Shown here: positions 2,896-46,342 of the stretch, piece by piece
How positions within the stretch are numbered: the first letter of the stretch is position 1
Layout of the letters: each line of letters starts with the position of its first letter
Assembly: GCA_015065215.1 (NCBI GenBank)
Contig: SVQT01000010.1
Span: 1 to 53,977 of the forward strand
Source: Oscillospiraceae bacterium
GTDB lineage: Bacteria > Bacillota > Clostridia > Oscillospirales > CAG-272
DNA length: 53,977 nucleotides
Direction of reading: 5' to 3'
The notes under the pieces: generated by a model
Told to the model about the DNA's origin: nothing
The model's database searches: none
Seen by the model: only the letters and a program-made list of their open reading frames with translations
Translations under genes and position numbers: made by a program

Positions 2896-2948
2896 ACAAG
2901 AGGAGCGGCCGCATTTAGCGCAGAACAAAACATACGAAAAAGAAAAAA

Positions 2949-2989
2949 GAAGCCGCTTTCACTATCTTTTTGATAGCGAAAGCGGCTTC
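2949..2989. terminator. Bidirectional terminator, AGCCGCTTT family
   Basis: An inverted repeat with arms GAAGCCGCTTTC and GAAAGCGGCTTC surrounds a T-rich loop, with A/T runs on both sides. It lies between the convergent mtlD and the small minus-strand gene. Its arms resemble the hairpins at 9536-9575 and 15816-15855. Confidence 0.8.
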
Positions 2990-3045
2990 TTCGGCGCAAA
3001 CGATAACATCGAACACGCCTTTGGCATCTGAATACGACAGTCCCG

Positions 3046-3225
3046 TTAAGATTTCATTGCCTGCATGACGTTTTGCATTTTGTGCCCCACGGCATCCATT
3101 GCCTTGCTCGTCTTTTTTGCCATACGGCTGGGAGAGCTTTTCATGGCTGTCATGACAAGTCCTACAGTTCCGGCAACCGCGAGAGCGCTTAAAACGCTGG
3201 TAGCGGTGATTGCTTTTTTGTTCAT
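3046..3225 (-). CDS. Small membrane-anchored peptide, unknown function
   Basis: A 59-residue protein starting MNKKAITATSVLSAL. It has one hydrophobic N-terminal segment (about residues 7-27) followed by a basic, methionine- and lysine-rich tail with KKTSKAMDAVGHKM. The start is chosen by an AAGGAGGAAG ribosome site just upstream; longer in-frame readings have no such site. The pattern (membrane segment plus Lys/Ala amphipathic helix) is reminiscent of small YtxH-like envelope proteins, but there is no clear family motif. It is convergent with mtlD and divergent from the DUF6062 gene. Coding is supported by the ribosome site, the hydrophobic pattern and the terminator after the stop. Confidence 0.7.
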   Translation of the reverse strand: MNKKAITATSVLSALAVAGTVGLVMTAMKSSPSRMAKKTSKAMDAVGHKMQNVMQAMKS

Positions 3226-8463: not shown

Positions 8464-9423
8464 ATGCCACAACTTGATATGCCTCTTGCGAAATTGCAAG
8501 AATACATGGGTCGCACCCCATGCCCTGCCGATTTTGATGAGTTTTGGGAGAGGTCGCTGGCCGAAATGAACGCCATCGATCCCAAGCCCGAATTTAAGCC
8601 CCACCCCTTTAAATCCAACTGCGCCGATTTTTACGAGCTGCGCTTTACCTCTACCAAGGGTGCCGTTATTTTTGGCAAGGTTGCCGTGCCCAAGAACGCG
8701 CAAGGCAAGCTTCCCGCCGTACTGCTCTTTCACGGACTTGGCGGCGACGGCGGCTCTTATAGCAAGCTCTTACCTTATGCTTCGCAAGGATATGTGGTGG
8801 CATCTATGGATTGCCGCGGTCAGGCCGGCCTTTCTCAGGACGTGGGCGTGCCCACTGTGGGCACCATGCTGACCCCCTTTGTGCGCGGCCTTGACGGCGA
8901 CCCCAACAACCTGCTTTGCCGCGATCTCTTTTTGGATACTGCCATGTTCGCCCGCATCATTATGGGGTTGGATCATGTGGATGAGACCCGCGTGGGTTGC
9001 ACCGGCGGCTCGCAGGGCGGCGCCCTGACGGTTGTCTGCGCCGCACTGGTGCCTTCGATCAAGCTGTGCGCGCCCATTCATCCGTATCTTTCCGATTACA
9101 AGCGCGTTTGGGAGATGGATCTTGCCAAGGATGCGTATGATGGTTTGCGCGGCTTCTTCCGCCATTACGATCCTCGCCATGAGCGCGAGGATGAGATCTT
9201 TACCAAGCTGGGTTATATCGACATCCAGAATTTAGCCCCGCGCATCCGCGCCAAGGTGCTGTGGGCGACCGGTCTGATGGATAACATCTGCCCGCCCTCC
9301 AGCCAATTTGCCGCCTATAACAAGCTGACCTGTGAGAAGGAGATGAAGATTTATCCCGACTACAAGCACGAAGCTCTGCGCGGTCATGACGACATCGTTT
9401 TTGATTTCATGGCTGAGCTTTAA
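8464..9423 (+). CDS. Acetyl xylan esterase / cephalosporin-C deacetylase, CE7 type
   Basis: A 319-residue alpha/beta hydrolase of carbohydrate esterase family 7, which deacetylates short xylo-oligosaccharides and similar acetylated sugars, usually intracellularly as a hexamer. Visible motifs are LLFHGLGGDGG (oxyanion loop), MDCRGQAG, the nucleophile elbow GGSQGG (Ser near 183), GLMDNICPPSSQFAAYN carrying the catalytic Asp, and YKHEALRG carrying the catalytic His. Length matches the family. An AAAGGAG site precedes ATG by 7 bp. It is the last gene of the plus-strand run and is followed directly by repeat element copy A with a terminator hairpin. With GH2 and two SGNH hydrolases it suggests processing of acetylated oligosaccharides. 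Confidence 0.9.
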   Translation: MPQLDMPLAKLQEYMGRTPCPADFDEFWERSLAEMNAIDPKPEFKPHPFKSNCADFYELRFTSTKGAVIFGKVAVPKNAQGKLPAVLLFHGLGGDGGSYSKLLPYASQGYVVASMDCRGQAGLSQDVGVPTVGTMLTPFVRGLDGDPNNLLCRDLFLDTAMFARIIMGLDHVDETRVGCTGGSQGGALTVVCAALVPSIKLCAPIHPYLSDYKRVWEMDLAKDAYDGLRGFFRHYDPRHEREDEIFTKLGYIDIQNLAPRIRAKVLWATGLMDNICPPSSQFAAYNKLTCEKEMKIYPDYKHEALRGHDDIVFDFMAEL

Positions 9424-9426
9424 AAA

Positions 9427-9612
9427 ATAGGGGCCAAGTCATCCGATGCAGAAGTTGCACGCTCGGCGCCACAGGCGTACAACGGTACGTCGGATGCTGA
9501 CAGCGCAACTAAAAAAGATAGAAATTCTACCCAAAAAGCCGCTTTACCATCACCTTTTTGATGGCAAAGCGGCTTTGTTCTATGCTTTTTGTGTGTTTTT
9601 TGTTTGGCGCTT
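9427..9612 (+). repeat. Dispersed element R1, copy A
   Basis: About 186 bp beginning 4 bp after the CE7 stop. It matches, base for base over most of its length, the reverse complement of 15767-15960 (copy B), which follows the ppa stop. Shared landmarks in order are GATGCAGAAGTTG, a short stem-loop CGTAC-AACG-GTACG (9476-9489), AAAAGATAGAA, TTCTACCC, a terminator hairpin (9536-9575), TTGTTCTAT and a T-rich end TTGTT-GGCGC-T-ATG. Outer arms GTTGC and GCAAC enclose the inner stem-loop. It could be a 3'-UTR RNA element, a small mobile repeat, or both. Confidence 0.75.
9536..9575. terminator. Terminator hairpin inside R1 copy A
   Basis: Arms AAGCCGCTTTACCATC and GATGGCAAAGCGGCTT pair with one mismatch around a T-rich loop. 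A/T runs on both sides make it suitable for both the CE7 gene (plus) and the MATE gene (minus). Confidence 0.78.
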
Positions 9613-9626
9613 ATGTGAAGCCCCTT

Positions 9627-11036
9627 CTATACCGTTTCGGGGCTTTTGAGGTGTTGCGCATCGTATTTGGCAAGCCACCCTCCGCTGAGAAAACGTATGA
9701 GAAAGAATACCGCACGGAAGAGCCAATCCACCGTCATGGCGATCCAGACGCCCATCACGCCAAGTCCCATCCCGGGGAAGGAGACGAGCTGGAATATCGA
9801 GACGGTTTCCAGCGCCAGTACATAGCCGAGTGCTACGCGGAATGCCCACATGGACACAGTAGAAATGATCATAGAAAACCGCACATCGCTTGCCGCGCGG
9901 AATGCGTTGGGCAAGCAGAACGCCACCGGCCAGATGACAACCGAAACGGCACCGTGATAAAGCAGTAGCTGTCGCGCGAGGGCGGCAGTTTCACCGGAGA
10001 GGCCGTAAAGTCGGAGAAGCGGTGCCGAAAACAGACTCATCAATCCGACCACAACGAAGAGTGCCGCATAGCCAATCCCCAGTAAGGAGCGGGCATAATG
10101 CTTGGCCTGATCCCGTTTTTCGGCGCCGATACATCTGCCCACCACAGCAACCATGGTGCTTTGTATGGCGTTGCCCGTGGTGTATTGCAGATTGGCAAGC
10201 GAGAGCGCGGCGGCATTGGCGGCAATCGCCACCGTACCAAGCGAGGAAACCAGGCTGGAGGTCATCAACCGGCCAAATTGAAACATGCTGTTTTCCACGC
10301 CGTTGGGTATGCCAATGCGCAGGATCTCCTTGATGATCGCAAAATCGGGACGATAGTGAAAGAGGTTTTCCAGATAGATAAAGCGTGTTTTTCTGTGGGC
10401 GATCACGGTCATCAGCAGCGCGCCGATAACGCGCGAGATCAGCGTTGCGATGGCGGCGCCTGCTGCACCCAGATTCATGCCGTAAATCAGGATTGCGTTG
10501 CCACCGATGTTCAGCAGATTCATGAACAGAGAAATTTTCAACGCAATCATACTGTCTCCCTGGGCGCGAAAGGTGGCGGAAACACTGTTTTCAATTGCCA
10601 AAAAGGGGAAGGAGAGCGCCACAAAGGAGAAATAGGCGATGGCGTTTTGCATAACGCTTTCCTCAACCTCTCCAAAAAGCAGATGTAACAGCGGTATGCG
10701 TAGGAGCAGGACTGTTGCGGTGATGACAGTCGCCACAATGGTGGCGGCGTACCAAAGCTGTTTGGCAGCGTCACAGGCGCGTTTTTGATCATCGCGCCCC
10801 ACCGCTTGCGCCAGAACCACGGCGCCGCCGCTGGTCAGAGAGGAAAAAAGCGTGATCAGAAGGGTATCCAGCGACCCTACCAGAGAAACGCCTGCGAAGG
10901 CCGCTTCTCCCTTGTTGGATACCATCATAGAATCCACCATGCCAATGGCAATGGACAGGATGCCCTGTAGGATCATCGGCGCAATGATCTTGGCGATGGC
11001 TTTGCGCGAAAACAGCATCTGATTACGGTTTTCCAT
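9627..11036 (-). CDS. MATE family multidrug/organic-cation exporter
   Basis: A 469-residue inner-membrane antiporter of the MATE (NorM/DinF-like) family, expected to export cationic drugs or metabolites using Na+ or H+ gradients. About 12 hydrophobic segments are seen, with the family pattern MILQGILSIAIGMVDSMMV near the N-terminus and a pseudo-repeat in the second half (GNAIQSTMVAVVGRCIGAEK). The start MENRNQMLFSR at 11036 is chosen because GGAGAGAG lies about 12 bp upstream and the longer in-frame reading would run through the divergent promoter region. It is divergent from the AraC gene at 11174, with a 22-bp palindrome between them. Substrate unknown. Confidence 0.9.
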   Translation of the reverse strand: MENRNQMLFSRKAIAKIIAPMILQGILSIAIGMVDSMMVSNKGEAAFAGVSLVGSLDTLLITLFSSLTSGGAVVLAQAVGRDDQKRACDAAKQLWYAATIVATVITATVLLLRIPLLHLLFGEVEESVMQNAIAYFSFVALSFPFLAIENSVSATFRAQGDSMIALKISLFMNLLNIGGNAILIYGMNLGAAGAAIATLISRVIGALLMTVIAHRKTRFIYLENLFHYRPDFAIIKEILRIGIPNGVENSMFQFGRLMTSSLVSSLGTVAIAANAAALSLANLQYTTGNAIQSTMVAVVGRCIGAEKRDQAKHYARSLLGIGYAALFVVVGLMSLFSAPLLRLYGLSGETAALARQLLLYHGAVSVVIWPVAFCLPNAFRAASDVRFSMIISTVSMWAFRVALGYVLALETVSIFQLVSFPGMGLGVMGVWIAMTVDWLFRAVFFLIRFLSGGWLAKYDAQHLKSPETV

Positions 11037-11076
11037 AGTAAAGCAACTCTCTCCGATTCGGATTTTGGCGGGCATC

Positions 11077-11105
11077 TTGACATTTGCTTTCCGCCCATTT
11101 ATAAT
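11077..11105 (+). promoter_or_regulatory. Sigma-A promoter for the AraC-family gene
   Basis: Perfect TTGACA at 11077-11082, 17-bp spacer, perfect TATAAT at 11100-11105. Transcription would start near 11112, just before the palindrome at 11121-11142. Confidence 0.78.
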
Positions 11106-11120
11106 GAGTATAACATATTT

Positions 11121-11142
11121 ATTTGGCAAGTTCTTGTCAAAT
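11121..11142. promoter_or_regulatory. Operator-like palindrome between MATE and AraC genes
   Basis: A 22-bp interrupted palindrome, ATTTGGCAAG followed by TTCTTGTCAAAT, with nine of eleven positions complementary. It lies in the divergent intergenic region, downstream of the AraC promoter's expected start, a good place for a repressor. Which regulator binds is inference. Confidence 0.5.
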
Positions 11143-11173
11143 AACAAGTAATTTGTGTCATTTTGGGGGATAT

Positions 11174-12274: not shown

Positions 12275-15200
12275 TCAAGTTTTACGCTTTTTGATCACAA
12301 ACCAGTAAACGGCAAAGCCCGCGCCGCCAAGCACGGCAACGGCACCGAGCACGATGCCGATCACAAGACCGATATTGCCATCCTTTTGATCAGTGGCACC
12401 CGTTTGAGTGCCATTGTTGGCGTTGGGCGTATCGGTGGTATTCTCGCTGATGGGAGGCAGTGTTTCCTTTTCTACCTTATGGCAAACGGCACAGGTGTGC
12501 TTTTGCTCACCGCTTGTGGTCGCAGTGGGCAGCTTTACAGATTCCCATGCTCCGTAATCATGCTCAGAAGTGGGTGTCACGACCCCGCCGCAACCATATT
12601 TGCAAACAGTAGAGCAGGCGTACGCGCCAACGTGGGGCAACGGATTGACCGTAGCGCCACATAGATAGCAGGCAGTATCCCGACAGTACACATTGATGCT
12701 ATGGGCACTTTCCGGTAGCTTGGGCTCGCCGCAATTCTTACACACAACTGAGCAATCGTGCAGTCCGATGTGGTTTTGCGTGGGTATCAGGGGGATTTCA
12801 CAGCCATAAATGCAGATGGTGGAGCAAGCCTTCTTGCCTGTATGGGCAACCGGTATGACCATTTCGTTGCAAACGGGGCATACGGTATCGGTACAAGGCG
12901 TTGCTATGTTGTGGGCGGGGGTATTGGAAAGCACCGTGCCGCAGTTGTATTTACAGGTGGTGGAGCAGATCTTCTCACCGGTATGCGCGGCGTGCTCAAC
13001 TGCCTCGCCGCAGTTTTTGCAATGGGTATCGCACGCATAGTTGGTGTCGTGGTCTTCAGAGGGCGTGAGCGTGTCGCCGCAATCCTTGCAAACACAGGCG
13101 CAATCGGCAGTATTCGCATGATCGCAGGACGACAGATCCAGACCAATGCGGTACATGGCATTGGGCACCCATTGGGCGGTGGAGAAATCTCTGCCCCAGA
13201 TCTCAATGCAATTTTCGTACACGCGAATGTAATAGCCCTTGCTGCTACTCCAATTGGAGTAACTGAGGCCCGCCTCATCATTCACGCCACTGACCAGATA
13301 TGCAACAGAAGCGGTGTTGAACACGTAGTTGGGCAGAAGCTCGGTATAAAGGAGATTGCCCTGGCCATCCCTGGGGTTGTCGTTGATGTCGGTGGGATTG
13401 TCGGGATCATAAATGTTGTGTCTGTCGGTCATATCCCAGTGGCTGTGACCGCTGAACAGCATTGCCTCCGGGAAATCCGACAGGATCTCGCGGAAGGGCC
13501 CCTCGTAAAGGCCCCTGGTCTTCCAAACCCCTGATGACTTCCAGGCGGCGTAGTTAGCATCGCCCGCAATAACACCGTCCCAATCCTGGATCGGCATGGC
13601 GCCGTCCACCACGTTATACAACTGCTGGTGGAGCAGGATAAAGGAGGGGCGATTCTGGTCCCGATCCTCGGCCAGCTTTTCCCGCAGCCACGAAAGCTGT
13701 GCATCACTGAAATAGGCGTGGGTAATGGGGGCCTCGCTGGCAAGGAAGATGTAGTGGAAGCCGTTGACCCACAGATCATAATAGGGCTTTCCGTTGGTAA
13801 TGACATTCTCCTCATAGCCGCCCGCGATCAAAAATTTGTTGGCGTAGGTGATAAAGCGGTCCTTTTCTCGTTCGTAATCCGAGGTATAGGAGTTGTCGAT
13901 GTCACCGATCTTCCATTCGTGGTTACCGGTTGCCATAAAGAACGGAGCGGACAACCCGGATTGCTCCCATAGTGCGTAGAGGTTTTCGTATTCCTCCACC
14001 CAACCGTCATTCACCGAGTCACCGGCGGCGAAAATGCCGACTGAGTTGGGATCGACCATCTTAATATCCGCCAGCATCTGGGCAATTCTTTGATTGTACT
14101 TGTGCGTTTGCGTTTCCTGCGAGTGCACGTCACTCACGATCTGGAAGGAGGTGATCAGATCACCCTTATCCGGTACTTTGGTACGGTCGGCGGGCAGATT
14201 CACTGAAATCAGTCCTTCGGAAACGCCGGCACCGTTGTAGCAGCACGCCATCAACCGGGTCGCCTCCTCAGGGATCACCATTACATCCGCCAGGTCGATC
14301 TCTACGGTCGCACCCGTCACCTTATAGAGCGAGATGTAGGTGTAATCCGCCAGCTTGCCGTTTTCATCTCCCCAGTAAAGGATCACGTGAGTGGGCAGAT
14401 TATAAACGTCATTCACCTCGTTGGGGTCGATGCTGACGGTGACCCTACCGCCCGCAGAGCCGGTTGTTTTGTCTTTTAGCGTATAGGTAATGCCGATGGG
14501 TGCGTCGGGAATATCGCCGCTGATGGTAATATCCACACGGGTGCCGTGGTTCTTTTTGGGCGCGGTGCCGTCCGGTGCGTAGGTGACAAAAAGGCTATAT
14601 TCTCCGGGAGGCAGATTCCACAGATCGGGATAGTTGCTGGTGGTTTTGCTTTCTGCGATATTAAAGCTGCCGGCAGAAAGGTTTGCCGCCGTCAGCGTCT
14701 GCCAACGGATCGAATTGTAGGTCACCTCCAGATCCGGATCCTTTGGCGCGATAAAGATATGGTCACCCACCTCAAGTCCCGCGCCTATGTTGACGTTGAT
14801 CGCCTCACCGTAGGAATAAACGGACTTGTTGGTGGTGAACGCAGCTTTGATCTTGATCTGGATCTTATGCGTGACCGATGCACCGCCGTTCACGGTTTGG
14901 GAGTCCTCGCAATACACCAGCCAATAGGTGCCGGCAGGCAGACAAAGCAGCTGCTTTTTGCTGATGCCGAAGTACTCTGCCCATTTCGTGGTGTTATTGT
15001 TAACGGTGCCGCTCAGGGCATCCGAATAATCACGCAGATCGTCCTCGGTTCCGTCAGCGGTACGGTTGATAATGGTACCGTGGCTGTATTTTGGCGCTCC
15101 ACTCACATCCGGCACGATGCCGTACCAGGATTTATAGGTGGGGTTCTCCTTTGCCTTGGCTGTGATCAGGATCGGCTCGCCGTAATCAAACTCAGTCTTA

Positions 15201-15673
15201 TTGACCGTCATGGGGCCCTTGGTAACGGTAATATCAATGGTGGAGGTGGTGTCGTAATCTTTTGCTACACCGCCGCCCTTGCACCAGAAAATGGTCCAAT
15301 CACCGGGATAAATATCCGCATACTGGGCAAAGCGAGTCTCTACCGCCGCACCCGTGCGAAGATCAAACGGCACGTTCAGGCCCAGGCCATTTCCACCGGG
15401 GCGGCTATCCTTAGAACCCGCGGCGATACGCTTATGGCGTACCGAGCCGTAGCTGACTCTACCCTTCGGGGCAATACCGATCCAGTCGGCACCCTCACCC
15501 ACCAGGGGTGTGATCATAATGGGTTCGCCGTAAACAAATGTCGTGGTGGCGTTGCCGTTTTTGTCTGCGACGGTGAATTTAACCGTTGATTGCGCGGCAG
15601 CCTCAAAGGGTAGCAACGCGATCAGCGGTGTTAGCATCAGCAGGCACAGTAGAGCGGAAAATAATCGTTTCAT
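12275..15673 (-). CDS. Large secreted, membrane-anchored metallophosphoesterase with Cys-rich repeats
   Basis: An 1132-residue exported protein. Residues 1-28 are a signal peptide (KRLFSALLCLLMLTPLIALL). Residues about 30-390 hold three beta-sandwich-like repeats, each with a YGE-I motif (FVYGEPIMITP, FDYGEPILITA, YSYGEAINVNI) and a later GI-P or I-AP motif. The calcineurin-like phosphoesterase domain (about 505-760) shows all metal motifs: IVSDVHSQ, AAGDSVNDG, ATGNHEW, LLHQQ and FSGHSHWD. Residues about 848-1080 carry repeated Cys/His units of the form C-x3-C-x2-CG (CVCKDCG, THCKNCG, TTCKYNCG). A C-terminal hydrophobic helix followed by KKRKT anchors it; no LPXTG motif is seen. It is a single-gene transcript with its own promoter and terminator. 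Substrate is unknown: phosphate esters, nucleotides or phospho-glycans are possible. Confidence 0.85.
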   Translation of the reverse strand: MKRLFSALLCLLMLTPLIALLPFEAAAQSTVKFTVADKNGNATTTFVYGEPIMITPLVGEGADWIGIAPKGRVSYGSVRHKRIAAGSKDSRPGGNGLGLNVPFDLRTGAAVETRFAQYADIYPGDWTIFWCKGGGVAKDYDTTSTIDITVTKGPMTVNKTEFDYGEPILITAKAKENPTYKSWYGIVPDVSGAPKYSHGTIINRTADGTEDDLRDYSDALSGTVNNNTTKWAEYFGISKKQLLCLPAGTYWLVYCEDSQTVNGGASVTHKIQIKIKAAFTTNKSVYSYGEAINVNIGAGLEVGDHIFIAPKDPDLEVTYNSIRWQTLTAANLSAGSFNIAESKTTSNYPDLWNLPPGEYSLFVTYAPDGTAPKKNHGTRVDITISGDIPDAPIGITYTLKDKTTGSAGGRVTVSIDPNEVNDVYNLPTHVILYWGDENGKLADYTYISLYKVTGATVEIDLADVMVIPEEATRLMACCYNGAGVSEGLISVNLPADRTKVPDKGDLITSFQIVSDVHSQETQTHKYNQRIAQMLADIKMVDPNSVGIFAAGDSVNDGWVEEYENLYALWEQSGLSAPFFMATGNHEWKIGDIDNSYTSDYEREKDRFITYANKFLIAGGYEENVITNGKPYYDLWVNGFHYIFLASEAPITHAYFSDAQLSWLREKLAEDRDQNRPSFILLHQQLYNVVDGAMPIQDWDGVIAGDANYAAWKSSGVWKTRGLYEGPFREILSDFPEAMLFSGHSHWDMTDRHNIYDPDNPTDINDNPRDGQGNLLYTELLPNYVFNTASVAYLVSGVNDEAGLSYSNWSSSKGYYIRVYENCIEIWGRDFSTAQWVPNAMYRIGLDLSSCDHANTADCACVCKDCGDTLTPSEDHDTNYACDTHCKNCGEAVEHAAHTGEKICSTTCKYNCGTVLSNTPAHNIATPCTDTVCPVCNEMVIPVAHTGKKACSTICIYGCEIPLIPTQNHIGLHDCSVVCKNCGEPKLPESAHSINVYCRDTACYLCGATVNPLPHVGAYACSTVCKYGCGGVVTPTSEHDYGAWESVKLPTATTSGEQKHTCAVCHKVEKETLPPISENTTDTPNANNGTQTGATDQKDGNIGLVIGIVLGAVAVLGGAGFAVYWFVIKKRKT

Positions 15674-15736: not shown

Positions 15737-15766
15737 GTCAAAAAGGAAACAAAATGACCAAAAAGG

Positions 15767-15960
15767 TGCTTTGCATGAGCGCCGAACAAAAAAATACACG
15801 AAAAAGTATAGAACAAAGCCGCTTTGCCATCACTTTTTTGATGGCAAAGCGGCTTTTAGGGTAGAAGTTCTATCTTTTTTGCACGCTCGGCACTCGACGT
15901 ACCGTTGTACGCCTGCGGTGCCAAGATCACAACTTCTGCATCGAATGTCTCAGCCCCTTT
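15767..15960 (-). repeat. Dispersed element R1, copy B
   Basis: Inverted copy of 9427-9612, lying about 55 bp past the ppa stop on the ppa strand. It carries the same landmarks: GATGCAGAAGTTG, the CGTAC-AACG-GTACG stem-loop (15898-15911), AAAAGATAGAA, TTCTACCC, hairpin (15816-15855), TTGTTCTAT and the GGCGC-CATG end. In this copy the arms around the stem-loop (CTTGGCAC and GTGCCGAG) pair over eight positions; in copy A the same arms differ but still mostly pair through G-U or G-C changes. Confidence 0.75.
15816..15855. terminator. Terminator hairpin inside R1 copy B
   Basis: Perfect 16-bp arms AAGCCGCTTTGCCATC and GATGGCAAAGCGGCTT around a CACTTTTTT-type loop. It would end the DUF512-der-obgE-ppa transcript on the minus strand. 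Confidence 0.78.
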
Positions 15961-16016: not shown

Positions 16017-16550
16017 TTAGCCGCGGCAGAATTTCTCTACGTAGCCGTCGATGGCCTCTCGGACGATTTTTTCCGCTTCCTCGCGGCTGTATAGCTCTTT
16101 GATGTCGGTCTGTTTGTTTTCCAGCTGCTTGTAGACCTTGAAGAAGTGCATGATTTCATCAAAGATGTGGGCGGGCAGCTCGTCGATCGAACGGTAGTTG
16201 TTATAGTTGGGATCGGTGAAAGGAACAGCAATGATTTTGTCGTCAATATGTCCGTCATCCAACATACGCATGACACCGATGGGATAAACGCGCACCAGGG
16301 TCAGGGGCTGGATGGGCTCATTGCAAAGCACCAACACGTCCAGCGGGTCTCCGTCATCCGCAAAGGTGCGGGGAATAAAGCCGTAGCTGGCGGGGTAGTG
16401 GGTAGAGGTGTAGAGCACACGGTCCAGTCGCAAGAGACCGGTATGCTTATCCAGCTCATACTTACAACGGCTGCCCTTGGAGATCTCGATAACAGCGGAA
16501 AAATCAGTAGGGGTGATTTCTTTGGGGTTCATATCATGCCAAATATTCAT
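16017..16550 (-). CDS. ppa: Inorganic pyrophosphatase
   Basis: A 177-residue soluble family I pyrophosphatase hydrolysing PPi to two phosphates in the cytoplasm, driving biosynthetic reactions. The signature DGDPLDVLVL (metal-binding Asp residues) is near residues 63-72, preceded by YPASYGFIPRTFADDGD and followed by KIIAVPF. The length matches the bacterial family. Clostridia often use the family II (manganese) enzyme or a membrane pump instead, so the type I enzyme is worth noting but not unusual. It is 13 bp after obgE, with AAGGAGGAGC upstream, and is the last gene of the minus-strand operon, which ends in repeat R1 copy B. Confidence 0.93.
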   Translation of the reverse strand: MNIWHDMNPKEITPTDFSAVIEISKGSRCKYELDKHTGLLRLDRVLYTSTHYPASYGFIPRTFADDGDPLDVLVLCNEPIQPLTLVRVYPIGVMRMLDDGHIDDKIIAVPFTDPNYNNYRSIDELPAHIFDEIMHFFKVYKQLENKQTDIKELYSREEAEKIVREAIDGYVEKFCRG

Positions 16551-26923: not shown

Positions 26924-27936
26924 GCAAAAAAGTGTTTGTGATGGGCGGTACGGGTGCTATGGGGCGCTATCTGATCCCACAACTGCGCGCGGACGGTTGG
27001 ACGGTGGATGTGCTATCGCTGGATGCTTGGGAAAGTACCGATCCCTGCTTGAAATATTACGTGGGAGATGCAAAAGACCCCGAAACGGTATCAAAATTTC
27101 TTGAAAACGGCTATGATGCCATCGTGGATTTTATGACCTATCATACCGACCGCTTTGCGGCGTGGCATGAGATGCTGCTCTCCTCAACCAAGCATTATAT
27201 CTATCTCTCCTCCTATCGCGTTTACGCAAACGAGGAGCATCCGGTGCGCGAGACCTCGCCAAGGCTTTTGGAGGCATCGCATGACGCAAAATTTTTAGCC
27301 TCCGATGATTATAGCCTTTACAAGGCGCGCGGCGAGGATATTTTGAAAAAATCCGCTTTTCGCAATTGGACGGCGGTCCGCCCTGCTATTACCTATTCTT
27401 CCCGCCGGTTTCAGTTGGTGACCTTGGAAATGCCCATGGTGGTAGGCCGGGCGCTAATGGGCAAAAAGGTGGTTTTGCCGCGCGCGGCCAAAGATGTGCA
27501 GGCGACCATGAGCTGGGCCGGGGATGTGGCGAGCATGATCGCGGGACTGCTTTTGCGCGAGGATGCATTCGGTGAGATTTTTTCAACTTGTACCGCCGAG
27601 CACCACACCTGGGGTGAGATCGCCGATTATTATCACGAGCTGGTCGGCCTGGAGGCGGTTTGGGTGGATACAGAGGATTTTATCAAGGCCATTGACGGTG
27701 AATTGCCCAATCTTTGGCAGCTTTGCTATGACCGTTTGTTTGACCGCGTTATGGACAACAGTAAAATACTGCGTTTTCTTGGTTGGGATCAAGGTGATCT
27801 GATGCCTCTGTATGAGGGGTTGAAGCGAGAGCTTGATGGGCTTCCAAGGGATAATATGGTGGCAGACGGTATCTATGATCCCGAAAATCACAGACAGATT
27901 GCAATGGATCGTTATCTTGGGATAAATGGTCTTTGA
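26920..27936 (+). CDS. NAD-dependent epimerase/dehydratase-like protein
   Basis: A 338-residue extended short-chain dehydrogenase. The Rossmann loop is VMGGTGAMGRYLIPQL (about 5-20). A YLSSYRVYANEEHPV segment provides the catalytic Ser, and DYSLYKARGE provides the Tyr-x3-Lys pair. The family includes NDP-sugar and free-sugar epimerases, dehydratases and reductases. Start ATG at 26920 overlaps the preceding stop. It lies 11 bp before the second MDR gene. With Gfo/Idh and two MDR enzymes it suggests a linear oxidation/epimerisation route for an unusual sugar or cyclitol; substrate unknown. Confidence 0.86.
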   Translation: MSKKVFVMGGTGAMGRYLIPQLRADGWTVDVLSLDAWESTDPCLKYYVGDAKDPETVSKFLENGYDAIVDFMTYHTDRFAAWHEMLLSSTKHYIYLSSYRVYANEEHPVRETSPRLLEASHDAKFLASDDYSLYKARGEDILKKSAFRNWTAVRPAITYSSRRFQLVTLEMPMVVGRALMGKKVVLPRAAKDVQATMSWAGDVASMIAGLLLREDAFGEIFSTCTAEHHTWGEIADYYHELVGLEAVWVDTEDFIKAIDGELPNLWQLCYDRLFDRVMDNSKILRFLGWDQGDLMPLYEGLKRELDGLPRDNMVADGIYDPENHRQIAMDRYLGINGL

Positions 27937-41569: not shown

Positions 41570-41606
41570 AACCCTCGAAACGGTTTTTAATACCGTTTCG
41601 GGGGTT
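41570..41606. terminator. Bidirectional terminator between EEP pair and nadE
   Basis: Arms AACCCTCGAAACGGT and ACCGTTTCGGGGGTT around a T-rich loop, with a T run on the plus side and an A run on the other side. Confidence 0.75.
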
Positions 41607-41618
41607 TTGGCATGTTTT

Positions 41619-43490
41619 TTATACCTCAATGGCTTCGATCTCGGCAAGCCAAAGCGCAGAAGAAGCATCTGATGGCATTTGCCAGTCGCCACGGGGAGAA
41701 AGTCCTACCGAGCCGATCTTCACGCCGTCGGGAACGCAGTTGCGCTTGAACTGTTGATTGAAAAATCTGCGCCAGAATACCGTGAGCCACTTTTTGATGG
41801 TGGCGCCGTCAAAAACGCCGTTAAAGGCAAGCTTTGCCAATGCATAGATCTTGGCGGGCGTGTATTGATAGCGCACTGCCCAGTACAAAAAGAAATCGTG
41901 AAGGGCGTAAGGGCCGACCAGATCCTCGGTTTTTTGCGCGATCTTGCCCACCGCGTCCGGGGGCAAGAGCTCGGGGCTGATGGGGGTGTCTACTACGCGT
42001 AGAAGCACCTCGCTGGCTTTGGGGAACACATTTTCCTCGGCAATGGAGGTCACGATCCAGCGGACCAGGGTTTTGGGTACATCGCCGTTCACGCTGTACA
42101 TGCTCATATGGTCACCATTGTAGGTGCACCAGCCAAGCGCCATCTCCGAAAGATCGCCGGTACCCAGCACAATGCCGCCAATTTGGTTGGCAATGTCCAT
42201 CAGCACCTGGGTGCGCTCACGGGCTTGGGCGTTCTCATAAGTGACAGAATAATCCTTGGGATCGTGGCCGATGTCCTTGAAGTGTTGCAAAACCGCTTCC
42301 TTGATCGAAACGGTGCGGGAGGTCACGCCAAGTGCCGTCATCAACGCAAGGGCGTTTTGCAGCGTTTCGTCTGAGGTGCCGAAGCAAGGCATCGTCACCG
42401 CTGTAATGTTGGTGTTGGGTAACCCCAGCTTTTCCATGGCACGTGCGGCAACCAAAACAGCCAGTGTGGAATCCAGACCGCCGGAAATGCCGATGGTCAG
42501 CTTACCGCCGGTGATCGAAAGACGGCGGGCGAGGGCGGCGGCCTGCATTTCGTAAATTTCCAGACAGCGCGCCACACGCGCGGCTCTGTCATCCGGAATG
42601 AAGGGCAGGCGGCTGATCTGCAAAAGTGAGCCGTCGGAGGCGGCAAGAGATACGGGCAGAGAGAATCTATTGCCAGTGGTAGGGGCAGTGGTGGCGCGAC
42701 AGCGGTCGTAACGGATCTTGCCCAGATCAATATCTGCCACCAACAGATAGTTGCTGTCGACGATGTTTTTGTTTTCTGCCACCGTCTTGCCATTCAATGC
42801 CATGATACCGTGACCCGAATAAAGCAGATCCGCAGTAGATTCCTCCGCGCCCGCGTGAACAGAAATGCAAGCGGCAATCTCCTGGGCGGATGTTTCCAAT
42901 ACCGTGCGCTGGCGGCGTTGACGCGCCCCCACCAAGGCGTTATCTGCCGCAAGATGTAAAATGACCTCGGCAGTGGCGGTGTCGGAAAGAAGATCGTTGC
43001 CGATCACAATTTTAAAGGTGGTACCGTCATTGGTTTCAAATAGGCAAGTATCGCTTACCGTGCCAAGCAGGCTTCCGTCTGTATCAAAAAGATCGCAGTC
43101 CGCATGCAGTCGCGAGGAGAAATAGCGGCGTTCGCCAATACTCAAATTGGATTTGACAACAATGGTGTTGAGCATAGCGCCGCTGATCACGGCGGCACCG
43201 TTATAGACGCGTCCTCCAGCCTTGATAGGTGTACCGATTACAACCAGCATATCCTCAGGTGTTGCGGTCGCAAGCTCCTGTAAAGCAAGTAGACATTGGT
43301 CTAACAGCACATCTGAGAAAAACAGATCGCCGCAGCTGGCGCCGGTCAGCGAAAGCTCCGGTGTAACCAGTACGGTTGCGCCTAGCTCGTGTGCTTCTTT
43401 GATACGTGCCAAAATGGCGTTTTTGTTATAGGTGACATCTGCCACCTTCAATGCGGGGACGGCCAATGCCAAACGCAAAATATCTTTCAT
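41619..43490 (-). CDS. nadE: NAD+ synthetase, glutamine-type with altered glutaminase site
   Basis: A 623-residue two-domain protein: an N-terminal nitrilase-like domain (about 1-290) and a C-terminal NAD synthetase (about 310-600), which amidates deamido-NAD with ATP and ammonia. The synthetase motif GISGGLDSTLAVLVAA is intact, as is GTGDLSEMALGW. In the nitrilase part, the Glu (TPELSLTG) and Lys (VVKSNLS) are seen, but the position of the catalytic Cys, usually in an ICEDLW motif, reads IGNDLL, with Gly at about residue 164 (codon at 43001-42999). Intact downstream frames argue against a sequencing frameshift. It probably uses free ammonia, or ammonia from another source. It has its own promoter and GGAGG site. 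Confidence 0.88.
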   Translation of the reverse strand: MKDILRLALAVPALKVADVTYNKNAILARIKEAHELGATVLVTPELSLTGASCGDLFFSDVLLDQCLLALQELATATPEDMLVVIGTPIKAGGRVYNGAAVISGAMLNTIVVKSNLSIGERRYFSSRLHADCDLFDTDGSLLGTVSDTCLFETNDGTTFKIVIGNDLLSDTATAEVILHLAADNALVGARQRRQRTVLETSAQEIAACISVHAGAEESTADLLYSGHGIMALNGKTVAENKNIVDSNYLLVADIDLGKIRYDRCRATTAPTTGNRFSLPVSLAASDGSLLQISRLPFIPDDRAARVARCLEIYEMQAAALARRLSITGGKLTIGISGGLDSTLAVLVAARAMEKLGLPNTNITAVTMPCFGTSDETLQNALALMTALGVTSRTVSIKEAVLQHFKDIGHDPKDYSVTYENAQARERTQVLMDIANQIGGIVLGTGDLSEMALGWCTYNGDHMSMYSVNGDVPKTLVRWIVTSIAEENVFPKASEVLLRVVDTPISPELLPPDAVGKIAQKTEDLVGPYALHDFFLYWAVRYQYTPAKIYALAKLAFNGVFDGATIKKWLTVFWRRFFNQQFKRNCVPDGVKIGSVGLSPRGDWQMPSDASSALWLAEIEAIEV

Positions 43491-44818: not shown

Positions 44819-46342
44819 CTATACGTTTTTTGCCGCTAATGTCATAATTTCCTCTTGGGTGGTGGTGGCGGCATCCACCTCGCCGGTGATCTCGCCCCCC
44901 GACATGACATAGATCCTGTGGCAAACGCCCATGAGCTCAGGCAATTCGCTGGAAACCATCAAAATGGATTTTCCCGACTCTGCCAGTTCCTGCATTAGCT
45001 GATAAATTTCGTATTTGGCGCCCACATCAATCCCGCGGGTGGGTTCATCTAAAAGCAGGATCTCGGGGGTGGTGAGCAACCAGCGTGCCAGAATAACCTT
45101 TTGCTGATTGCCACCTGACAGCGTGCGAATTTGTGTCTCTTTTGAGGCGGTTTTCACGCTGAGTCGCTCGATCATACGATCGGTATCGGCACGTCGCTCA
45201 CGGTCAGACAGGAGAATACGCCACCTGAGATATTTTCTCAATGCGGTGACGGTGGTATTTTCGGTAATATCCAAAATGCTGAAAATGCCGGTGGCACGTC
45301 GCTCCTCGGTCAGTAGGGCAAATCCGTTCGCGATGGCTTCGCGCGCGGTGCGGTTACGGATTTCTTTGCCGTGGAGATAAAGAGTGCCGCGTTCTCTTGT
45401 GGAAATGCCGAAGATGTTTTCTAAAAATTCACTTCGCCCGGCACCCGCCAGGCCGGCCAGACCCACGATCTCGCCCTTTTTGAGCGAGATCGAGACGTCC
45501 TTTACTTTGGTATAGCGAGAGGAGATCCCTTTTGTTTCAAATACCGTTTCGCCGATGCTTTTATTTTTTTGCGGAAAGCGATTGGAAAGCTCGCGTCCCA
45601 CCATCAAATGAATGATTTTTTCCATTGTCATCTCACTGGCGGATTCAGTCGCCACGTGCGCACCGTCGCGCATGACAGTGATCTCGTCTGAAATTTGCAG
45701 GATTTCCTCCATTTTGTGGGAGATATAGATGATGCCGCATCCCCGCTCCTTTAAGGTGCGGATAATGCGAAAGAGGTGCCCGACCTCCTCATCGGCAAGC
45801 GAGGAGGTGGGCTCATCCAGTACAATGATTTTGGCGTGATAGGAAACCGCTTTGGCAATCTCCGCCATTTGCCGTTCAGCCACAGACATGGTGGACATCA
45901 TGCGGGTGGGATCAATGGATAGGCCCAGATCCTCAAAAATGGCACGGGTTTTTTGGGCCATTTCCTTTTCTGAGGTCAGCCCGAAGCGGGTCGGGTAGCG
46001 CCCCAGCCAGATGTTGTCCATGACATTGCGTTGCAGAGCTTGATTCAATTCCTGATGCACCATGGCAACACCCTTATCCAAAGCATGTCGGGGATTTTTA
46101 AACTCGACCCGTTCCCCCTCTAAATAGATTTCGCCCCCATCCTTTTCATAGATGCCGAAAAGGCACTTCATCAGGGTGGATTTGCCGGCACCGTTCTCTC
46201 CCATTAAGGCGTGAACGGTACCGGCTTTGACCGTCAGGTGCACATGGTCCAGCGCACGTACACCGGGGAAATTTTTTACAATGTCCCGCATTTCCAGCAA
46301 GACAGGGTCAAAGGCCTGCTCTTTAACCGAGATATTTTGCAT
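44819..46342 (-). CDS. mglA: Galactose/methylgalactoside ABC transporter ATPase
   Basis: A 507-residue double ATP-binding protein. The first half has MGENGAGKST (Walker A), the QMAEIAKAVSYHAKIIVLDEPTSSL segment with a variant signature (VAERQ) and Walker B; the second has the degenerate GLAGAGRSEFLE, a good LSGGNQQKVILARWL signature and LLLDEPTRGIDVG. This arrangement is normal for sugar ABC ATPases. The start MQNISVKEQAF at 46342 overlaps the end of mglB by 20 bp, which suggests translational coupling. An upstream in-frame Met would extend the overlap; the family-like start LLEMRDIVKNFPGVRALD begins about 27 residues in. Confidence 0.9.
   Translation of the reverse strand: MQNISVKEQAFDPVLLEMRDIVKNFPGVRALDHVHLTVKAGTVHALMGENGAGKSTLMKCLFGIYEKDGGEIYLEGERVEFKNPRHALDKGVAMVHQELNQALQRNVMDNIWLGRYPTRFGLTSEKEMAQKTRAIFEDLGLSIDPTRMMSTMSVAERQMAEIAKAVSYHAKIIVLDEPTSSLADEEVGHLFRIIRTLKERGCGIIYISHKMEEILQISDEITVMRDGAHVATESASEMTMEKIIHLMVGRELSNRFPQKNKSIGETVFETKGISSRYTKVKDVSISLKKGEIVGLAGLAGAGRSEFLENIFGISTRERGTLYLHGKEIRNRTAREAIANGFALLTEERRATGIFSILDITENTTVTALRKYLRWRILLSDRERRADTDRMIERLSVKTASKETQIRTLSGGNQQKVILARWLLTTPEILLLDEPTRGIDVGAKYEIYQLMQELAESGKSILMVSSELPELMGVCHRIYVMSGGEITGEVDAATTTQEEIMTLAAKNV

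Follow-up and report, generated by a model that had tools for sequence, protein, structure and literature searches.

Dispersed repeats of three families have been described in Streptococcus pneumoniae. The terminal inverted repeats of BOX and RUP pair into a fold; both families are over-represented between convergent genes, and both cause target duplications (PMC3049150). SPRITE is a terminator-like repeat with AAAA/TTTT ends that forms one 18-bp duplex followed by a U-rich tract. It is the most enriched of the three between convergent genes, near 3' ends; co-option of its copies as terminators has been suggested, and a target duplication could not be established (PMC3049150). In S. mitis all three families are less frequent, and other streptococci have almost none of them (PMC3049150). 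GTAG-tagged REPs with RAYT transposases are 20-40 bp long, carry a tetranucleotide tag, and are extragenic, folded and non-autonomous, lying mainly between convergent or unidirectional genes (PMC3733652). Prokaryotic MITEs, according to a review, are short, have inverted-repeat ends, insert at AT-rich sites and give transcripts predicted to fold; they derive from known IS and carry target duplications that wane with age (PMC10969869).

The window analyzed here, a stretch of 53,977 nucleotides from a draft Oscillospiraceae genome (G000; 2.14 Mb in 85 contigs), carries copies of a real, family-wide structured dispersed element that is apparently undescribed. Set against these families, it resembles SPRITE in having a terminator-like hairpin near gene 3' ends and in being enriched between convergent genes – though, compared with SPRITE by description, it is larger, branched and closed by its own ends, has a conserved side hairpin, spans many genera and occurs inside RNase P RNA. 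With BOX and RUP it shares dispersal, folding, paired ends and an excess between convergent genes, but no target duplication was seen and its fold extends across 24 genera of one family. Like the GTAG-tagged REPs it is extragenic, placed between convergent or unidirectional genes, folded and non-autonomous, but it is ~200 bp long, the tag was not seen, and no Y1 transposase was detected in G000 or in a second genome with many copies (G018). It is short like a MITE, with inverted-repeat ends, AT-rich sites and predicted folding, but neither a target duplication (near-identical G018 copies included) nor, in searches for PF01797 and PF13751, a parent IS was found. The element therefore lacks what defines each of these known kinds: the target duplication of MITEs, the tag of REPs and the architecture of SPRITE.

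The original prediction paired two sequences of the window, one after a CE7 gene and one after ppa (both names are taken from it), as copies of one dispersed element. These copies, A and B, do align from end to end, and each has the features that it described: a core reading CGTAC-AACG-GTACG, arms that pair, and a hairpin on the 3' side. A covariance model matches copy A at 9421-9625 (+; 134.9 bits) and copy B at 15966-15765 (-; 130.7 bits); because these spans carry 9 flanking bases, the element proper begins at GGGG, at 9430 in copy A and at 15957 in copy B. Copy A (9430..9625, +; also a member of the BLAST family of the genome) lies between the CE7 gene (8464-9423, +) and a convergent gene (9627-11147, -) that looks MATE-like by eye; its right end is 1-7 bases, depending on the end definition, from the 3' end of that gene at 9627. 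The names MATE, der, DUF512 and rimO, as used here, likewise rest on the original prediction or on inspection of the sequence, the exception being domains assigned by Pfam. By model alignment, the arms of its closing helix P1 occupy 9430..9444 and 9611..9625 (+), with several pairs broken. Its P2 domain (P2a, P2 and the CGTAC-AACG-GTACG tip) spans 9454..9509 (+), on the basis of model alignment and of covariation in the genus and family sets, and its P5 hairpin, terminator-like on both strands, spans 9535..9576 (+), on the basis of repeat family D11 and a terminator scan (L001). Copy B (15765..15957, -; covariance model match) lies downstream of ppa (16017-16550, -) and upstream of an 1132-aa gene (12275-15673, -), with a P5 hairpin at 15815..15856 (-) that is likewise terminator-like on both strands (D11 and terminator scan, L002).

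Both copies beat 200 dinucleotide shuffles of themselves in folding (z -5.3 for A and -7.1 for B), and both have lost most of the P3 arm and the P4 hairpin, which most relatives in the genus alignment keep. The window also holds a third, degenerate copy absent from the original prediction: copy C (2902..3053, -; 40 bits, E 4.6e-9 over the window) lies 6 bases past the stop of a called gene (1558-2895, +), antisense to it, and by sequence reading its P2 is shortened and the left arm of P3 and P4 are deleted. Separately, a short recurring ATACCGTTTCGG(GG) motif is found at window positions 9622-9658, 27068-27096, 41583-41619 and 45534-45570, and in the terminator after ppa in another genome of the genus (G001).

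The element is dispersed, as had been proposed. BLAST of the own genome gave 70 matches, from which 28 places (L001-L028) were accepted as forward copies, ten of them partial; the remainder are short pieces or the palindromic hairpin matching itself. Aligned in one orientation, the unit measures ~200-215 bases and has inverted ends, AAAAGGGGCTGMGTCATNAGATGCAGAA on the left and TTCKGCGCTNATGAMKCAGCCCCTTTT on the right, with variation. BLAST (E <= 1e-5) found it in 17 of 21 genus genomes, counting the own one, and in none of 38 others. A 25-base core pattern, searched as an exact match, hit 47 stretches in the GTDB genome collection, from which the own genome is possibly excluded; each of the 47 is titled as a MAG of a 'Clostridia bacterium' or an 'Oscillospiraceae bacterium', and many come from the gut of deer, sheep and goats. 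The idea of a genus-bound element was overturned by a covariance model (R1) built from 62 genus copies with 73 pairs: at E <= 1e-4, and with rough E-values, it located the element in 63 of 295 evenly drawn family genomes and in 24 of 71 genera, 23 of them outside the own genus. Most of the matches listed cover the whole model, and copy numbers are lower bounds since 7 candidates were scored per genome. The further copies that the original prediction had proposed to look for are thus present in the genome, the genus and the family. Carriage by phages or plasmids was rejected as an explanation, as three exact patterns of the element matched no viral contig and one element used as query matched no phage or plasmid.

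Two alignments underlie the following comparisons. The genus alignment (A2) comprises 62 copies, those left of the 74 full-length copies of the genus after removal of 12 that were near-identical. For the family, 60 places were fetched from among the R1 matches listed, mostly the best per genome and thus non-randomly, and one (L311, G002) belongs to the own genus. The family alignment (A3) has 62 rows, namely these 60 main copies, a tandem neighbor (L309) and a reverse partial match (L319:1275-1449); the last enters the count of two-sided changes only, and later family counts refer to 61 rows. Rfam yielded no acceptable match over the element in the window, in six loci searched at a loose threshold or in 40 of the 60 family loci. 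The loose search returned 17 matches up to E 5, and the two that overlap an element (in L094) were rejected as far below cut-off: PyrG_leader at 28.2 bits (gathering 65) and MIR6024 at 24.9 bits (gathering 72). No description of the element was found among the titles and abstract openings searched, and it may be present, unnamed, in a large motif screen such as PMC8040213.

Constraint on the top strand maintains a single branched fold of eight helices, in which the closing helix P1 pairs the ends of the element. A second helix, P1b (GCAGAA/TTCTGC), also joins the two ends; a side hairpin consists of P2a, P2 and a GCGTAC/GTACG tip, strongly conserved as GNCGTAC..GTACG; and a long arm, P3 (AAAAACACAC/GTGTGTTTTT), bears P4 (GAAATTC-NNNN-GAATTTC) and often P5 as well. 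The covariation test suggested by the original prediction gave values well above shuffled controls. In the genus set, 43 of 73 pairs have changed on both sides, amounting to 280 cells (100.6 +/- 7.8 when shuffled, 39-68 when slid); in the family set the figures are 69 of 73 pairs and 927 cells (270.2 +/- 14.6 shuffled, 155-199 slid), where cells count sequences rather than independent events. In the terminal inverted repeat, P1, two-sided change affects 14 of 15 pairs in A2 and all 15 in A3. Because A3 was fitted to the model, 34 copies were aligned by MAFFT alone (A4, naive to structure). From this alignment RNAalifold recovered the P1-P4 architecture with an energy of -106.5 kcal/mol; 50 column shuffles gave -8.5 +/- 2.9, and the opposite strand gave -94.2. 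The result answers the model-fitting objection only. With a conserved fold and no Rfam match to the element in the loci scanned, the earlier suggestion of a structured RNA class holds up to the extent of a conserved structured family.

The coding origin that the original prediction had kept in reserve, on the strength of a shared DAEV..APQAYNGTS frame, does not. The frame is open for 31-38 codons in the own-genome copies L003, L010 and L001 and for longer in a few others, but a stop falls within 10 codons in 46 of the 62 genus copies and the substitution pattern in this set is compensatory. We therefore rejected decayed coding sequence as an explanation; a coding origin for the family is refuted, and what probability we leave it is negligible. 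Two structural variants were seen along the way. In one own-genome copy (L008:1496-1701) the P2 tip resembles the reverse complement of the usual tip, as though flipped between its arms. One genus genome (G003; contigs 66, 67, 28, 19 and 43, L228-L231 and L234) has a longer version, 343 bp where complete, with an insert of ~130 bases in the P2 tip; several contigs of that genome end within it.

Where one strand forms a G-U pair, its complement has an A-C mismatch, and the balance of the two indicates which strand is folded. Across the 61 family rows, the core helices (P1b, P2a, P2 and the P2 tip) contain 110 G-U and 22 A-C cells, with 18 of the 110 cells from a single tip pair whose commonest form is G-U; among 38 representatives of <75% identity the counts are 64 and 18. 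Elsewhere in the 61 rows the ratio is near even in P1 (42:35) and there are few of either in P3 (6:3) and P4 (7:4), and in P5 it is reversed (35:54; 25:28 among representatives). Among 22 genus representatives, with the commonest-G-U tip pair excluded, the counts are 17:2 in P2, 3:2 in the tip and 12:47 in P5. The G-U excess in the core helices identifies the top strand as the folded one, and we read the core as being under selection as a single-stranded top strand and P5, in the genus, as being under selection on the bottom strand. Palindrome correction at the DNA level should leave a strand-symmetric pattern, and the bias thus speaks against it as the origin of the covariation.

Copies sit at gene 3' ends, often ~10 bases past the stop codon, and those in tandem settings are mostly antisense. 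Among the 73 of 79 genus copies with both neighbors called, 40 are convergent, 25 tandem antisense, 8 tandem sense and none divergent; 122 element-free intergenic regions of at least 20 bases, drawn from the 47 loci of the GTDB core-pattern search, comprise 14 convergent, 78 tandem and 30 divergent ones (Fisher p 2e-7 for the depletion of divergent and 1.5e-10 for the enrichment of convergent settings). The family set gives 23 convergent, 22 tandem antisense, 5 tandem sense and 2 divergent (n=52, both genes called). These counts omit 6 of 79 genus and 9 of 61 family copies that have no gene call on one flank. Among the 73 and 52 are a few dependent pairs, both orthologous (L058/L098, L112/L114, L287/L318) and tandem (in L108, L110 and L309). 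Genes were called by simple scripts that score codons or amino acids and differ slightly between the two sets. From the stop of the facing gene to the element end, the median distance is 6 bases on the left and 12 on the right in the genus, and 32 and 8 in the family set.

Copies A and B both run in the sense direction of the gene they follow, as the original prediction stated, but sense placement fails as a rule: tandem copies are antisense rather than sense by 24 to 8 among full genus copies and by 46 to 13 in both sets pooled (p 2e-5). The designation as a 3'-UTR element stands as regards position at gene 3' ends, but since the strand with the conserved fold is mostly antisense in tandem settings, the mRNA of the abutted gene would carry the other strand.

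That other strand is predicted to supply an intrinsic terminator when read from the abutted gene. A scan for a simple hairpin followed by a T tract, with Markov shuffling as control, found candidate terminators on the bottom strand of 56 of 62 copies in the genus and 52 of 61 in the family (shuffled, 8 and 5), and on the top strand of 46 of 62 and 33 of 61 (shuffled, 10 and 5). Terminator-like hairpins of the kind proposed earlier are therefore carried by most copies, their activity being predicted. The hairpin that the original prediction had in mind, P5, is missing from 21 of 61 family copies (scored as missing if >8 of 17 left-side columns are gapped), so P5 is not the constant part, and we dropped the notion that it represents the conserved function; of these 21 copies, 15 still have a predicted bottom-strand and 10 a predicted top-strand terminator (shuffled, 1 and 4). 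A predicted terminator stands between stop codon and element at only 3 of 92 gene ends. Element-free gene ends themselves yield a terminator in the same scan in only 12 of 38 convergent and 15 of 34 tandem cases (next gene at least 20 bases away), which makes absence beside an element weak evidence alone. Terminator-like hairpins do occur within ~110 bases of 24 of 74 copies (either side or strand, with gene interiors and tandem neighbors included), and L046, L054, L057 and L103 appear to retain a native terminator; replacement of terminators as a strict rule was rejected accordingly.

Orthologous sites were compared for four own-genome copies, a non-random choice (A, B, L009 and L013). The site of copy A after CE7 has a plain terminator in the syntenic G004, and that of L013 has plain terminators in G001, G004 and G007. 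At the L009 site there is a plain terminator in G001, with both flanks shared, and in G004, with one flank shared; G007, with one flank shared, has neither element nor evident terminator there. The copy B site is uninformative, as no relative has the same right neighbor. These comparisons bear on whether the element is instead a class of structured 3' regulatory RNAs or terminators that does not move and is retained at orthologous sites. Orthologous copies do exist (L058/L098, L112/L114 and a pair in RNase P RNA described below), but three of the four own-genome sites have a plain terminator in a relative with shared flanks and, in G018, near-identical copies occupy 11 sites with differing flanks; we regard a non-mobile class as very improbable. 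The element is instead predicted to work like a mobile terminator module. Shortened derivatives in G016 (contig 102) and G003 (contig 37) resemble simple terminators. After ppa in G005 (L063) we also observed an array of short hairpins separated by ATGAAATG units.

We infer movement from copy number, near-identity and differing neighbors. The 11 near-identical bodies in G018 have differing flanks, and the small differences between them are concentrated in the outermost four bases. In addition, G012 holds a second family of ~170 bp (L118-L121 and L136-L153, with L242-L243 in G013; ends GGGGCTGCGTCATTT ... CATTTGACTCACCCCC), whose ends are common with those of the first family and whose interior is unrelated. 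Its 22 fetched places in G012 are mostly near-identical, with L151 divergent and L145 cut by a contig end. After ppa, a member of it is found in G012 where G013 has a plain terminator; at one site the second family adjoins a remnant right end of the first, and G017 has a first-family copy beside the same gene.

Shared ends around unrelated interiors speak for an ordinary MITE, a deleted DNA transposon whose terminal inverted repeats are served by a cut-and-paste DDE transposase, and the inverted-repeat ends (P1 and P1b), the nearly strand-symmetric wobble of P1 (42:35) and the multi-copy, intergenic occurrence all fit such an origin. Against it, the 74 full copies, the 11 near-identical ones included, showed no target duplication clearly beyond permuted flanks (offsets near both ends, lengths 2-10), and the interior fold is conserved far beyond the need of terminal repeats. 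The flanks of these copies are A-rich on the left and T-rich on the right. IS1182-type elements can be without target duplications; the IS1182-type transposase (PF13751, the only DDE family searched) was found in 0 of 21 genus genomes and was rejected as mover. An ordinary MITE is, in our assessment, distinctly unlikely.

Lack of a target duplication, a folded strand and an extragenic position at 3' ends are also what a REP-like element would present if a Y1 tyrosine transposase of RAYT type moved it in the form of a folded DNA single strand; genes for Y1 or RAYT-like transposases (PF01797) occur in 10 of 21 genus genomes. PF01797 had no match at E <= 0.001, however, in G000 or in G018 with its near-identical copies (drafts, 85% and 93% complete), the flanks of the 74 full copies share no GTAG tag, and separate GTAG-bearing repeats occur in G018: at L069, after ppa, GTAGGGGTCGGCGCC... 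repeats resemble GTAG-tagged REPs. Y1/RAYT was set aside as mover on its distribution, and a REP-type origin seems to us as doubtful as a MITE. The search for a mover or an autonomous partner covered PF01797 and PF13751 in the 21 genus genomes and brought neither to light, although draft MAGs may lose multicopy IS; nor does a recurrent neighboring gene suggest itself, the largest cluster among called neighbors in the family set having only 4 proteins.

Some further observations concern these genes and hairpins. L161-L163 and L165 hold RAYT-like Y1 transposase genes. A Y1 gene adjoins der in several genus genomes, and in two or three also a PDZ/DUF512-type gene; in the window, a mere 37-base gap separates der from the PDZ/DUF512-type gene. 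Lone hairpins of 30-51 bases, perfect or near-perfect, with P1-like arms (many GGGGCTGNCTCAAATG) and without the element interior, occur in 9 of 21 genus genomes.

STRR repeats, which are short tandem heptanucleotides, lie in the RNase P RNA of heterocystous cyanobacteria. The element is similarly a repeat family within RNase P RNA, but here a whole unit of ~200 nt with its own conserved fold has been accommodated. Two of the 60 fetched family places, in G187 and G318, which belong to one genus, lie inside this RNA (L287:1075-1639 and L318:1075-1627, insert included), with the element on the strand of the ribozyme. RF00010 is matched over its full model length at 214.9 bits in L287 and 211.5 bits in L318 (gathering 100). 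The insert follows model position 136 and occupies the loop of what we take to be helix P12, and P1 of the element merges with this host helix. With its two ends paired to each other, a copy in a hairpin loop need not disrupt the fold of its host. The two RNase P genes are orthologous by their neighbors yet diverged, which makes an old insertion in that genus probable. Relative to its neighbors, genes for a histidine kinase and a radical-SAM (rimO-like) protein, the RNase P gene has opposite orientations in G187 and G318.

Two copies in sense inside RNase P RNA might suggest that the element is RNA-borne, the folded top-strand RNA being a mobile intermediate that is reverse-transcribed or spliced in, as in a SINE or an intron. 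The conserved fold with its strand-specific wobble, the strongly conserved loop motifs and the missing target duplication fit such a route, as do eight own-genome copies that match in the 3' part only (L023 among them ambiguous). These 3'-only matches may, however, be decayed copies in which the terminator hairpin survived, and the query of the first BLAST search was biased toward the 3' part; an Rfam intron match is likewise absent from the loci scanned. We consider an RNA-borne element unlikely. The boldest form of the idea is a self-folding mobile RNA, resembling a SINE or an intron, that inserts as a closed domain into hairpin loops, such as those of terminators or of RNase P helix P12, which would make it tolerable to host RNAs, and that in antisense replaces native terminators across a whole family of gut Clostridia; we hold that to be unlikely too, a shade more so.

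The explanation we favor, and think reasonably probable, is that of non-autonomous dispersed elements of ~200-240 bases with a folded top strand, a terminator-supplying bottom strand and a mover acting in trans. Such an element would insert at the 3' end of a gene, often ~10 bases after the stop codon, between A-rich and T-rich flanks and with no detectable target duplication. Its bottom strand would give an intrinsic terminator, made up of P4 or P5 and a subsequent T tract, that could take over from the native one, which appears to be absent at some sites. The top-strand fold, as single-stranded DNA or as RNA, would be recognized by the trans-acting mobility factor, and the self-closing ends would let a copy occupy a hairpin loop, as in the RNase P RNA of two genomes.

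If this reading is right, a large class of structured elements without an Rfam match in the loci scanned has been found, maintained by compensatory change across at least 24 genera. Its members would provide genes with terminators, thereby altering their ends, and could reside within an essential ribozyme. The family would then offer a natural experiment on the origin of terminators, some deletion derivatives of the element resembling plain ones, and on the means by which a folded element moves when no target duplications are made.
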